This document shows positions 57,283 through 64,000 of a stretch of DNA of 64,000 nt, one piece after another. The notes beneath the pieces are model-generated. The model saw nothing but the letters and a program-made list of their open reading frames with translations, was not told the DNA's origin and ran no database searches. The DNA lies in assembly GCF_021462225.1 (NCBI RefSeq), contig NC_061816.1:3939249-4003248 (forward strand), read 5' to 3'. Origin of the DNA: Girardinichthys multiradiatus. Taxonomy: Eukaryota > Chordata > Actinopteri > Cyprinodontiformes > Goodeidae. How positions within the stretch are numbered: position 1 is the stretch's first letter; every line of letters starts with the position of its first letter. The position numbers and the translations under genes are program-made.

Positions 57283-57719
57283 GCTGCTCAGTTCACATCA
57301 GCTCACACACATGGAGCTGCAGCCAAGAACACACATGATGAAGATACATTTTCATTCACTGATTGACTTTAACTAGAAGCTTCGGTTCCTTCAGTCACTC
57401 AGTTTAACACATGGAAACATTTCAGCTGATAGACGATGCAGCAGAGGATCATCTTCACACCATCAGACTGATCATTACTGATTCACTTTCAGAGGACATT
57501 AGAACAGAAATTAACACAAACACTGAGATATAAATCTCACCAGGTGGGAGAACGATTGTTCAGTGAATAAAAATAAGTAGTTGTTGTCCCTCTGATTTAC
57601 TTTTATACAGTTAAATCAAATAATGTACAAAGCTAGAAGTAACACCTCAGTGATGTCCAGTATTTTACGGTTATGACAAGGAGGGTCCATACAGTCTGGG
57701 GGGATAAAACACATTAAAG

Positions 57720-58690
57720 TACAACAGTGATTCACAACATAAACATGGTTGTGAAGTTTGTAGACGACACCACTGTGGTGGGTCTCATATCTAACAGTGA
57801 TGTTAGACAGGAGGTCCTCAGTCTGACTCAGTGGTGCTCCAGCAAAACCAAGGAAGTCATAGTGGATTACAGGAGGTCCAGGAGGACTGAACACGCTCCT
57901 CTCTACATACAAAGGGAGGTGGTGGAGTGTGTGGACAGCATAAAGTTCCTGGAAATTCACATTTCTTGTGACCTCTCCTGGATTGAGAACACCTCCCACC
58001 TGGTAAAGAAGGTCCAACAACGGCTCTTCTTTGTCAGGAAGCTGAAACGGACTGGACTCTCTACTCAGCTGCTCACAAACCTTTACAGGACCACAGCTGA
58101 AAGCATCCTGTGCCTCAGTGTGATGGTGTGATATGGGAACTGCATGGCACAGGAGAGAAAGGGCTGAGCACGAGTGGTGAGGACAGCACAGGGGATTGTG
58201 GGATGTTGTCTACCGGATCTGGACTCAATTTATGCAGCACGAGTCCAGAAAAGAGCCAGACACATTGCTAGAGACCACACCCACCCAGGCAATGTACTGT
58301 TTGTCCCACTTCCTTCAGGAAAACGATTCAGGAACATCACAGCAAGAACAAATAGACTCAGAAATAGTTTATTTGATGAAGCAGTGAAGGTAATTGTCCA
58401 CCTGCAGGCAGACATTAAACATCCCTGCTGACAATGAAACAAACCACCAGCCCATCTTAGACTGTTTCAGCACAAGCTACACTTCATGTAAATACTAAAT
58501 ACTACATGCCACATTCAATGCACATATGTTCACTTTTTCTATAAGTGTTTTCTGAAAGTGTTGTTTAATTTCTGGTTAAATTCTGCAAGTGTTTTTAATT
58601 ATGTCTGTGAAATTCATGTGAGTCTGTGGAGCCGAGCCTCAACAAAATGTCATTATGGTGAAATAATGAGAATAAAGAATCATGAATCTC
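57720..58690 (+). mobile_element. LINE (L2/Rex1-like) 3' end
   Basis: Begins within the RT: FVDDTTVVGLISNSD (YADD box as FVDD), LTQWCSSK, KEVIVDYRR, FLEIHISCDLSW, QQRLFFVRKLKRTGLS. From 58174 comes RTAQGIVGCCLPDLDSIY and the terminal HPGNVLFVPLPSGKRFR. It ends with the 3' tail GAGCCTCAACAAAATG...GAATCTTGAATC. 5' truncated and with one frameshift near 58130. It lies upstream of the NLR first exon, opposite strand. Confidence 0.85.
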
Positions 58691-58699
58691 TTGAATCTT

Positions 58700-61100
58700 G
58701 AATCACTTACTGCAGATGGAGGTTTCCACTGAGAAAACGAACTGGGCCTAAACATCCAGGTTCTCCAAGAAGCAGGTTTTCATTGGGAGGAGCTGAAATT
58801 CACTTTGGATTCAGCTGCTGAGAAAAAGGTCAGAATGGAAACAAAGAAAAAACTAAATGGTTGCAGGTTTTCCTCTTTGTGATAACATACTTCTAACAAG
58901 AACAGTGAGTCCAACTTCCTTAGAAAACTGGTGTTTATATTAAGTTATTTTGATAAAGTTCTGTCTAGTTGGGATTCATGTGAAAAGTGGGTGTGCTCCT
59001 TTTCAGTTCACAGGCAGAGAACCCGGCTAGAGATGATGAGGAGCAGTGAGAGGAGCAGAAGGAGGTGACACCTTTCACTGACAGCTTCACTTTATTCCTT
59101 CATCTAAGCATTGATTTTCACATTGATAGAGTTCTAGTTGTTTCAGTCATAAATGGTCACAGAAGTTGTTCATCACCTTGAGAAAGTTGTGCATTTTAGA
59201 ACAGCAGCACACATGACAAACTGCTCACAAAACAAACAGCACTGATGTGGCTTTGATATGATTTATTTATCATATGTAGGTTAACACACAGTCAACGATG
59301 CAGTGAAATGCTTGGGATAAGAAGAATCGTTCAACTCGCTATAAAAACAAAAGCACTGATGATGTGCAAAATAAAGCTGATAAGCTGATAAAGTTTCACA
59401 AATGTGGTTTAGTTCACTATTATTATCCAGAGTTCAGTAGTCTGACAGCTTGTGGATTAAAACTGTCTTTAAGTCTGACTGAATATCCTTTTATTTAAGG
59501 CCGATTTCAAAATAAAACTCAATAAATCTCAAAAACGGGTTTTAGTGTTTGTTCCACTGTTGCTGTTGTCTGGTTTGGAAACTGTCCCACAAAGTATTGC
59601 GTAAGAGGAGAAAAATGTTGCGTGGGGACACAAGAAAAAAAAATCCCCCCAAGTTCCAACAAATGAAGTCGGGGAACAAAACACATGAAAATATCTGGAT
59701 CCATAAAACGAAACATGAAGCAGTTTCACTGGTTTAACTTACATGACTTGTTGTGGACTTTCTACCGCATTTATCACCGGCTTTTATTGCGCGATCTTTG
59801 TATGATTCTTGGAGCTCCTCTGGGCTTTGAAGCGAACCGGACCGGACCGGACCAGAGCAGATCCAGAACGTGTATCCCCTGCGTCGGGAGCGCGCATTCA
59901 TCAGTTAACTCCGCCTCATTTCCAACCAACCAGACGTGGAAATAAAGATGTTTTACTTTTGTTAACAGAGTGTCGTTACTTTATCGTTCAGTTAGTGATT
60001 AAAACTGAAAGTTTCACACTGATTGTCATCACGTGGTATCGTGATAATCACGTCTGTTTAAACTCATTGATCATTCAATATAAACTCATCGATCACTTAA
60101 TATAAACTTATTGATCAATCAATATAACTATTTCTCAACAAGTAAACGGCTCTGAGGTCATTTCCAGATGTCTCACATAAATATTATTTGCTTTGAGTTA
60201 TTAGATCATCGCTTGTCTCTCTGCTGAAAGCAAACATCCACCTTCCTGAGTTTATCACAGCTGTCTGCTGGTTCATGTATTTTTATTGATAGATATGAAT
60301 GGATCATATAAAATTGATCCCAAATATGATCAAATAAACACTGAAGAAAGTTACAGCCAAACTTATTTGTATCTGGAATTTCTAGATTCAATGAGATTTT
60401 AATTCAGTCAAGAAGTATATTAAGGAAACGAGACAAAATATAACAATGTATAAGTTTTAAAATTATATATTTTCATTTTATTAGAAGGACATGTTTAAAA
60501 TTATTCAGACTTCAATACTAAATGTTAAACGTTTTGATGATTTAAAGCACTGCAGTTTATAAGTACTGACCAGCTTTTTTTCATCTTTCTAAAGGTATTT
60601 AGACATTTGTCTTTGGATCAGAGTCATGCAGGCTGGAAGTATCCTGTCACCATCTTTTCTAACATCAGGTTTCATATTTTATTTTACACAGCTATCCTTG
60701 GATTATGATTAGTGGTCTTTGTGTTTTTAAGTCTTTCTGTCCTAATCTTAATCAAAGTCAGCCAACAAATTTCCACATTTCTTTAAGGGAAACAGACTCC
60801 ATCATGCTGAGCCTGCCTGGATTTTTATTCTCCTTCCAGAAAAGGACCAACAATGTCCCACATTCTTGATTTTTCGGATCAGAAACACTTCTTACAATGA
60901 TTAACTACTCCTTCAATTTTGGAGCTGTCAGTTCTTATACAGTAAAGTTACAGGGGGATACCAAAAGTATCAGGATGACACTGATCAGTTTTCAACATTC
61001 TTGATTTTTCTGCCTAACAATATTTCTCACCATGATTTTCTACTCTAGAAACTTTGGATCATGTTCCTCCCAGCAAGACCAAGCAGGGGAAGAAGACTCA
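58700..61100. other. No gene recognised
   Basis: Non-coding sequence between the LINE and the virus-like element. A CGGACCGGACCGGACC run occurs near 59840. I found no supported open frame. Confidence 0.45.
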
Positions 61101-61148
61101 TTAGAGAATTTAAGTACACCCTTTCATCAAACTTTTTGACAGGTGGGT

Positions 61149-61176
61149 GGGACTTCCGGTGAGGGCGGGATTTCCG
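61149..61176. promoter_or_regulatory. Two kappaB-like/ETS-like motifs
   Basis: GGGACTTCCG (61149-61158) and GGGATTTCCG (61167-61176) are spaced 18 bp and resemble NF-kappaB half-consensus sites joined to an ETS core (TTCCGG). They are followed by repeated GGGCGCCAT and GCCATGTGG and a CACGTG at about 61222. Confidence 0.4.
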
Positions 61177-61311
61177 GTGGGCGCCATATGGGCGCCATGT
61201 GGTTGCCATGTGGGCAGGAGGTCACGTGGTCAAGCAGGTGGTGTGTCCAAGGGGGGCGTAACAGTGGATGCTGATTGGTTGTCGTCATTAGGGGCAATAC
61301 CTTAAATGAGT

Positions 61312-61470
61312 CAATTAAAACACAGGGGTGTGTTTGTTATAAATAGAACAAGACAAATATGGTATTATCGGAAACTGTTTGGCATCAGCACCAATTAAAA
61401 ATAGAGGGGGTGTGTTTGTAAGCATCGTTAAACCTTGAATAACCCAATGAAAACAATAGGGCGTGCCTTA
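61312..61470. repeat. Three diverged leader repeats
   Basis: CAATTAAAACACAGGGGTGTG (from 61312), CAATTAAAAATAGAGGGGGTG (from 61391) and CAATGAAAACAATAGGGCGTG (from 61444) are related units. The first two are each followed by TGTTTGT. They flank the TATA box at 61338. Confidence 0.6.
61338..61345 (+). promoter_or_regulatory. TATA box, candidate
   Basis: TATAAATA, 206 bp before the first ATG frame. A second AT-rich box (TTTAAATACA, about 61480) lies nearer to it and could also serve. Confidence 0.4.
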
Positions 61471-61550
61471 GTGTTTACTTTAAATACAGAGATAAAACTC
61501 TGCACTTTACATGCAGCATTCGTTGGAAAAAAAAGAACACCCGTTCAGCA

Positions 61551-62504
61551 ATGGCTAGAGTTAAGAGAGTTTATCGTCAAGCGGAGGAGAAACGCAACGC
61601 GTGCCAAGATGATGATGATGAACAAGCAACTGCATCATATACTTCCTCAACGGAGATACCTATCGGAATTCCCGTCGTGACATACTCTACCGATGATGAG
61701 GATCCAACATCAACTTCAACAACCATGGTTGAAAATCAGACCTCGGTTCGGCCAAGAGGTATGTCAGTTCTGTGCGAAACCCCAGTGACCGTCTACCAGT
61801 ATTCATCCCGTGAATTGAATGCTCCTAAGAAATCAACATACTACATCTGCAGGGTACAAAGACCCCCGTTCAAGACTCTGCAGGAAGAATGGTCTTTGGA
61901 GCCATATGGCCTGGTTGGCAGCTGGGGTTATATTTTCATGTATTAAATAGGAGAGCTTTGCCTGTATCAATTGGATCAAGATGAGGTATTTAATGGATCA
62001 CTGGCTCTGTGTACACTCACCCACAGCGACTGGGCTGTGTTAAAGCTTGCAATCCCGCACCTTAATGATAGCCCTGAAACAGTCTCAAGGCAGGAGAGGG
62101 AGGAAGAAGAAGAAGAAGAAAATGAACTGTCTCCTCGACCTGTAAAATGGGCGAGAATGTTTCATATACCATCCGATGTTGAAATAGCTGAGAGAGAACC
62201 TCTCTTTAGCGCAGTGTGGGGGTCAAAAACCACAGCAAATGGCCGCTGGTCTTTTCGGGCAAGCAGACGCAGGAACAACCGGACGAGTCCCTCAGATCTG
62301 TTTGTGTTGGAGGCTTTCAATCAAGACTGCGGCGTATTCAAGACACTGCTGGCTCTGCCGTTTGAAGCTTGGGCAGAGAAGATGAGTGAAATTGGACATC
62401 GTCTTTCCGACCTTTTCCAAAAGTCACGAAGTTGGATCGATGTCATGTCAGTGAAAAAAACGCTGACGTTTCCTGTTTTACGTTTAGAACGAACCCTCTT
62501 CTGA
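61551..62504 (+). pseudogene. Unrecognised element protein 1, split by one in-frame TAA
   Basis: From ATG at 61551 the frame runs to a TAA at 61944 (131 aa), then continues in the same frame without another stop to TGA at 62504 (186 more codons). The first part starts basic (MARVKRVYRQAEEKRNA), then acidic (DDDDE) and Thr/Ser-rich. Both sides of the TAA look like one globular domain (LVGSWGYIFMY before, GELCLYQLD after). The second part has an E-run (about 62105-62125), KWARMFHIPSDVEI, a basic RRRNNR patch and a helical C-terminus. I know no family for it. It lies just upstream of protein 2, 70 bp before that start. The TAA may be a mutation in an old copy, readthrough or an intron boundary. 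Confidence 0.5.
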
Positions 62505-62523
62505 GGACACGCCCCTTCCTATG

Positions 62524-62533
62524 ATATATATAC
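62524..62533 (+). promoter_or_regulatory. TATA box, candidate, before protein 2
   Basis: ATATATATAC directly after the stop of protein 1 and about 45 bp ahead of the preferred ATG (62575). The distance suits a short leader, so each frame may have its own promoter. Confidence 0.35.
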
Positions 62534-62574
62534 GGGGGGATAACTGCAAGCTCACAGACACTGAGAATCGTATC

Positions 62575-63297
62575 ATGAGAATGAGTGGACCGACACCATA
62601 CAGGGATCTCTACAACCACCGAGCAGAGATCCACTTCTCTCCTGAGCACGATGAAAGCTTCAACATTGGACCATATCATCCGCCTTCCCCTGACCTCTTC
62701 TCACCATCCACCTCAACATCCTCATTCTCAGAGAACCACTACAGTCCTGCATCACCTACAGGATACAACATGAAATATCTACCGCTTTCTCCAGACCTCT
62801 GCTCACCATCACCGCTATTCATGGCTGAGTCTGTAGACGCGAATGTCCTGCCTGAAGACATGAAGGTGGTCGTGGAGGAGGAGGTAGCCACCGGCTACTC
62901 ACCCTCTACCGAAGCCCCTACACAAACCCTGGAACCGATGGAGGACCCACAGCCTTCAGCAGAGGATGAGAGTAACCAGGAGGACGAAATTGACGGTTGG
63001 TTGTCAACCACCCTCATCAATACGGTGAAAACAGCGATACTTCATTTATTCAACATAACCTCTTTGAACTATCTCAGAGAAACCTGCTATGGATGTATAA
63101 CGAACCACCCAAGCCAGCGTCAACACCATTGCCTGGAGGTACTGGGGGAGGATTATTACCAAGTCAACTTTCAACGCATCGTACGACGACTCGTAACCCC
63201 CAAACTTATTCCTGCTATTCAGAATCTTCTGGTACTTCGAAGCATACAAGCGGATGACTTCAGAGTGAAGACGATTGCCAAGACGGTTTTATATTAA
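62575..63297 (+). CDS. Unrecognised element protein 2 with HPSQ zinc-like motif
   Basis: About 240 aa. ATG at 62575 (MRMSGPTPYRDLYNH) is preferred to the upstream ATG at 62521, which lies on the TATA box. The N-terminal half is Ser/Pro-rich and acidic with a repeated P/L-SPDL-x-SPS phrase, like an activation or scaffold region. The C-terminal half is globular: a helix (LINTVKTAILHLFNITSL), then CYGC....HPSQRQHHC, a Cx2Cx4H...HxC pattern that could bind zinc, then helices (FQRIVRRLVTPKLIPAIQ). It ends at TAA 63295-63297, but the same frame stays open to TGA at 63414 (38 further codons, helical), so the protein may be truncated by this stop. Family not known to me. Confidence 0.6.
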   Translation: MRMSGPTPYRDLYNHRAEIHFSPEHDESFNIGPYHPPSPDLFSPSTSTSSFSENHYSPASPTGYNMKYLPLSPDLCSPSPLFMAESVDANVLPEDMKVVVEEEVATGYSPSTEAPTQTLEPMEDPQPSAEDESNQEDEIDGWLSTTLINTVKTAILHLFNITSLNYLRETCYGCITNHPSQRQHHCLEVLGEDYYQVNFQRIVRRLVTPKLIPAIQNLLVLRSIQADDFRVKTIAKTVLY

Positions 63298-63639
63298 CTG
63301 AAATCGGTACAAGGCATCCACAGTGCAATAGCGCACGTTTATGATCGCATGGTCGATGAGAAACATCTCAAACAACTTAACTCTGTTTCAAAGTGCTATG
63401 GACTGACAAACTGATCTCACATGTTTGATGACTTGTTGTATCATTTTTTTTTTTTAGTATTCCAGTAGTTTAGTTAATCTGCATTATATGATTTTTCTTC
63501 TTTTTTCTTTTTACTATTAAATACAATTAAAGTAGGAACATAGTAACCTTTCCCAAAAGTGTTGTTTAAAAGCTAGTAGTGTTTGAATTCATCTGCATTT
63601 TATCTGATTTTGTTTTCTGGTTGTTTTTTGTTTATATTA

Positions 63640-63665
63640 AATAAAAAAATAAAAAAATAAAAAAT
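63640..63665 (+). terminator. Polyadenylation signals, candidate
   Basis: AATAAA occurs several times in an A-rich run (ATTAAATAAAAAAATAAAA) between protein 2 and the integrase start; suitable for ending the upstream transcripts. Confidence 0.4.
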
Positions 63666-63740
63666 AAGGATAAATCTACCCTCCTGTGTGTTTTTTCTCA
63701 TTATTTAACAAGTAATCGGCAGAGTGAGCATAAGGCAGAG

Positions 63741-64000
63741 ATGGCAGGAAGACGGCTGATGAAGAAAGTATATTATAGCCCTTCAAATCCGGGAAGTTTT
63801 GGGGGTGTAGATAGGCTGAGGAGGGTTATGCAAGATGAAACGGGAAAGAAGGTTGCGGTTGAAAAAGTTAAAGATTTTTTATCAGGAGAAGATACCTATA
63901 CTCTACATAAACCTGCAAGAATAAAGTTCCCGAGAAACAGAGTTTTTGTCACCAGACCATTGAGGCAGTTCCAGGCTGATCTCTGTGACATGCAAGCTCT
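63741..64000 (+). CDS. Maverick-type integrase, N-terminal part (runs off the window)
   Basis: ATG at 63741 (MAGRRLMKKVYYSPSNPGSF) opens a frame with no stop to the window end (86 codons). YY.P..PGSFGGVDRL, FLSGEDTYTLHKPAR, FPRNRVFV and RQFQADLCDMQ follow the order of the F54H12.3-like integrases of Mavericks. The Asp of QADLCDMQ is at the position of the first catalytic residue of the rve core. In these elements the enzyme inserts the linear DNA into the genome. The rest of the core, the other acidic residues and any chromodomain lie beyond 64000. Confidence 0.75.
   Translation, partial: MAGRRLMKKVYYSPSNPGSFGGVDRLRRVMQDETGKKVAVEKVKDFLSGEDTYTLHKPARIKFPRNRVFVTRPLRQFQADLCDMQA

Follow-up and report, generated by a model that had tools for sequence, protein, structure and literature searches.

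A numerous vertebrate-type Maverick family with two accessory genes and inserted palindromic forms in the genome of the splitfin Girardinichthys multiradiatus

The window analysed here is a stretch of 64,000 nucleotides (C23:3939249-4003248) from the 1.15 Gb genome of Girardinichthys multiradiatus, and its right-hand end (positions 61103-64000) comprises the leftmost 2.9 kb of a Maverick (Polinton), a virus-like DNA element of the vertebrate type. The whole element measures 18,666 bp, starting at window position 61103 and continuing outside the window to C23:4019016. It has the termini AGAGAATTTAAG on the left and CTTAAATTCTCT on the right, and its terminal inverted repeats (left versus right, the latter at L010:7549-7768) align over 233 columns at 90% identity. 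The following features fall within the window:

61097..61102, no strand: target site duplication of 6 bp, CTCATT, repeated just after the right end at C23:4019016
61103..61335, plus strand: left terminal inverted repeat, beginning AGAGAATTTAAG; its left limit is common to other copies
61551..62504, plus strand: protein 1 gene, a single frame interrupted at 61944-61946 by an in-frame stop
62521..63297, plus strand: protein 2 gene, 258 amino acids, with a Ser/Pro-rich N-terminal part
63085..63132, plus strand: CYGCITNHPSQRQHHC, conserved putative zinc-binding motif of protein 2
63741..64000, plus strand: start of the integrase gene, which runs on past the window, where its chromodomain lies

Reading from the left, the plus strand carries protein 1, protein 2, the integrase, open reading frames (ORFs) of 257, 167 and 435 amino acids and an adenovirus-type protease (PF00770, E=7.4e-6, over the curated cut-off), and the opposite strand carries ORFs of 118 and 113 amino acids, a fragment of an A32-like ATPase and PolB (PF03175, E=4.7e-42), for which protein priming is suggested by the gene content. 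In the integrase, the rve domain (PF00665, E=5.3e-4) stays under the cut-off and the Chromo domain (PF00385, in L009, beyond the window) exceeds it; the packaging ATPase (Pox_A32, E=0.0021) is likewise under the cut-off, and its gene is interrupted by a long interspersed nuclear element (LINE) that matches reverse transcriptase and ALKBH8_N (L009:5652-8000 and L010:1-651). Judged by order and length only, the ORFs of 257, 167 and 435 amino acids, which follow the published order and gave no match to Pfam profiles, are candidate capsid genes. An earlier reading of the window, made from its letters without database searches (the sequence-only reading), had located here a leader, a pair of coding regions and the beginning of an integrase, all of which were recovered, and had assigned the integrase to the Maverick type, an interpretation that PolB, the protease, the inverted repeat and the 6-bp duplication support. 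It had further proposed looking to the right for polymerase B, capsid and protease genes and a matching inverted repeat: within 18.7 kb PolB, the protease, an inverted repeat of ~233 bp and the 6-bp duplication are present, and the capsid part of that expectation drew no profile match.

Two accessory genes precede the integrase, are open in most of ten sampled copies and have relatives in other fish. The same earlier reading was right about two coding regions; the one it listed first corresponds to a single frame (61551-62504) split by a stop. This frame is unbroken in the public relatives P0032 (324 amino acids) and P0034 (319 amino acids), as well as in all seven other copies compared (L002-L008). 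The window frame of protein 2 stops ~40 codons before the end of its relatives, leaving a shorter C-terminus. The CxxC...HPSQ...HxC motif already noticed from the letters is indeed there, as CYGCITNHPSQRQHHC, and in the form CxGCxxxHPSQxQHxC it recurs in pufferfish, grouper and pipefish. Relatives of protein 2 in other fish reach E-values as low as 3e-109, the named matches of the first search being Goodea, Ataeniobius, Xenoophorus, Crenichthys, Xenotaenia and Characodon, all of them splitfins (Goodeidae, Cyprinodontiformes). Protein 2 is encoded at 98-100% identity at no fewer than 147 scored places of the genome (1284 first-look candidates), a figure that may slightly overstate the number of separate insertions because some places on C24 and C25 are parallel and may be alleles. 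Because of this recurrence and the matches in other fish, we do not regard the locus as a product of chance.

Neither protein could be given a family name, as had been anticipated. Pfam returned no convincing match for protein 1 or for protein 2, whose best hit (Retrotran_gag_4, E=0.001) appeared in 3 of 17 relatives, and database matches of both were confined to uncharacterised fish proteins and contigs. Foldseek gave nothing with E<0.4 against PDB (both protein models) or BFVD (protein 2 only); PHROGs, searched with four window pieces only, matched the second piece of protein 1 weakly three times (E=0.09-0.33) and the other pieces not at all; three scans of viral contigs and one of a genome contig set found no relative; none of the 35 proteins examined contained the LxCxE Rb-binding motif; and a literature search for the HPSQ motif found nothing. 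In a predicted model of a relative, the C-terminal domain of protein 2 is helical, and we suggest that protein 2 would bind zinc and act early or in regulation, with its N-terminal part disordered.

The C-terminal part of protein 1 is modelled as a weakly PC4/PUR-like unit of four predicted strands plus a helix. This would liken it to the PC4/Sub1 and PUR proteins, which bind single-stranded DNA, but it differs from them in having no significant sequence match (nine alignment members without a Pfam PC4 match; hhalign P=0.078), and an open-licence literature search found nothing joining Polinton and PC4. Protein 1 might accordingly be expected to bind single-stranded DNA during strand-displacement copying, a role filled in adenovirus by the DNA-binding protein. 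Unrelated VIA entries sit near the PC4/PUR ones, which slightly lowers our confidence in the overall reading of the element given below. Both genes stand outside the integrase, and the proposal that they are Maverick accessory proteins is supported.

Some public gene models (e.g. P0009, P0010 and P0013) fuse parts of proteins 1 and 2, which might indicate a single spliced gene in place of two separate proteins. We consider this doubtful: the two occupy separate frames in contigs (P0032 with P0002, sized 2262, and P0034 with P0017, 2309, each pair presumably from the same contig), and the fused models may be forced joins.

Although the window copy is decayed, the family is numerous and young. 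Besides the stop in protein 1 and the early end of protein 2, the integrase (past the window) and PolB frames of this copy are each cut by a stop with the same frame on either side, and its 118-amino-acid frame corresponds to one of 285-286 in the ten sampled copies. These ten were single protein 2 matches from the best-scoring part of the list (rows 3-9 and 12-14), traced to the far end. All ten run from a left to a right end over 15.5-16.3 kb and carry a 6-bp target duplication (two with an extra dinucleotide), and stop-to-stop frames reached at least 335 codons for protein 1 in nine, 308 for protein 2 in ten, at least 362 for the integrase in nine and at least 1117 for PolB in six. Divergence across 14 left arms was 0.4-11.3 per 1000. 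Protein 1 shows 5 synonymous and 17 amino acid changes plus 1 stop, a pattern that looks neutral; protein 2, with 9 synonymous and 8 amino acid changes plus 1 stop, looks slightly constrained. Both sets are too small for a conclusion, and a further 21 changes lie outside the two frames. Among the matches listed, identity ranges more widely in the N-terminal part of PolB (88-100%) than in protein 2 (98-100%); many of the listed PolB places share one in-frame TAG, either within or ahead of the true PolB start, that the window copy and others lack. C24 and C25 carry several element places in matching order, as two haplotypes or sex chromosomes would.

The same genome contains ten palindromic elements, of which seven have a left end on both sides and three a right end, and all ten are flanked by 6-bp target duplications, three of which require one extra AG/CT to be allowed. 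Neighbouring protein 2 places within 40 kb form six inward, one outward and three direct pairs; all six inward pairs have two left ends, as does L002, which holds a single protein 2 copy. Their lengths are 3,078, 5,100, 6,220 and 7,186 bp and, as taken from the end coordinates, ~11.2, 13.2 and 14.6 kb. Five of the duplications are direct (ACTGTG, TACTAT, CCTGGT, CAAAAA and AACACC) and two (GCTGCA and CACAGT) come with an extra CT at one end; the absence of a duplication once considered for two of these elements was dropped when wider flanks revealed duplication and extra CT alike. Six of the seven, mapped on one canonical piece, consist of two unequal arms, in two cases joined through a short additional piece, and the turn overlaps at their joints are 10, 11, 4, 14, 1 and 0 bp. 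PolB places (at least 131) form four inward pairs, one outward and one direct. Three of the inward pairs, in which the outer ends were read, have right ends on both sides and the duplications GTGGTG, TGTAAA and TGTATG (the last with an extra AG). The fourth (C17:5546482-5561443) was not counted, as its host flanks are mirror images and it is probably an inverted duplication including host DNA. One palindromic element is nested in another Maverick copy (L011 flanks, C9:29826400-29831750).

We suggest that this is a vertebrate Maverick with accessory genes whose palindromes arose by foldback during protein-primed linear replication and were inserted by an integrase acting in trans, and we put the probability of this reading at roughly two in three. 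By its gene content, the element would copy as linear protein-primed DNA and then insert via its integrase. While copying is under way, the new strand would turn back along itself, frequently where short inverted repeats occur; the mirror-image product, identical at its two ends, would then be inserted by integrase from complete copies. The duplications differ from locus to locus, which indicates that each palindrome was inserted as one unit, and arms of unequal length flanking a single-copy stretch, together with short turn overlaps in four of six joints, are as expected from foldback of a nascent strand.

Inverted duplications are known assembly errors, and the C17 pair, with its mirror-image host flanks (over the 11 bases compared), looks like an inverted duplication and not an insertion. 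The palindromes might therefore reflect misassembly, or ordinary insertions that were later rearranged in the chromosome. We regard this as very unlikely, since locus-specific target duplications would not be made by an artefact and lie outside both ends in seven of seven two-left-end and three of four two-right-end candidates; moreover, where one palindrome lies inside another Maverick, the flanking bases continue the host copy on both sides.

Another account, in which an element was inserted into an oppositely oriented one and a deletion followed without any part for replication, draws on the seventh two-left-end element (C12), where an internal right end adjoins a left arm. It is nonetheless unlikely as a general explanation: the mapped parts of the other six show no internal right end, overlaps of 10-14 bp occur at three of six joints, and the arms of L011 and of L012 are mutually nearest among the 14 compared. 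One L013 arm is not nearest to its partner among these 14, a point in favour of the insertion-deletion account.

Adenovirus defective genomes have duplicated ends, and the adenovirus packaging signal lies at the left end. Both systems would involve protein-primed linear DNA and mirror-image molecules with two identical ends; the fish forms differ in being chromosomal, with target duplications, and in occurring with both end types. Because the seven two-left-end elements were the first to be found, a left-end packaging signal that favoured them might have been supposed. Two-right-end elements exist, however (three among at least 131 PolB places versus six inward pairs among at least 147 protein 2 places, counts that are not clearly different), so that such a signal is unnecessary; this explanation, which we now hold to be most improbable, was dropped when they were found. 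The extra AG/CT present at some ends is consistent with slippage on repeated termini when primed replication starts, as known from adenovirus.

Extending the foldback reading, we consider it slightly better than an even chance that fish germ-line Mavericks copy extrachromosomally as protein-primed linear DNA and that integrase captures foldback errors as left-left and right-right palindromes, that is, as defective virus-like genomes which persist in chromosomes and retain just those genes that lie closest to one end. Palindromes inserted between target duplications would be a physical trace of linear, end-primed germ-line copying. An open-licence literature search, over titles and abstract openings among the matches listed, gave no report of palindromic Maverick forms, and nothing was found on Maverick in Goodeidae.

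We take betaadintoviruses, alongside vertebrate Mavericks/Polintons, to be the closest known system. PMC8097293 describes vertebrate Mavericks with the integrase outermost in its module, followed by three genes and the protease, an opposite module of PolB and an ATPase-like gene, an accessory region outside the integrase and core modules, inverted repeats, 6-bp target duplications and AG-rich ends, all as here. The present family differs in its inserted two-left-end and two-right-end palindromes and in its two accessory families, which the passages of PMC8097293 consulted do not name. The near-identical accessory gene at 147 or more places compares with one-genome maxima there of up to 38 intact copies and 287 Maverick loci in total (axolotl, all defective). 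Maverick copying is deduced in the same paper mainly from genes, particles not having been observed, and the reference list cites a jumping-back study. A genome with this many near-identical copies is a place to look for Maverick activity, and the two accessory families can serve as profile seeds for annotating fish Mavericks. To the left of the element, window positions 57616-58431 hold ORF remnants that presumably resemble the tail of a LINE reverse transcriptase.
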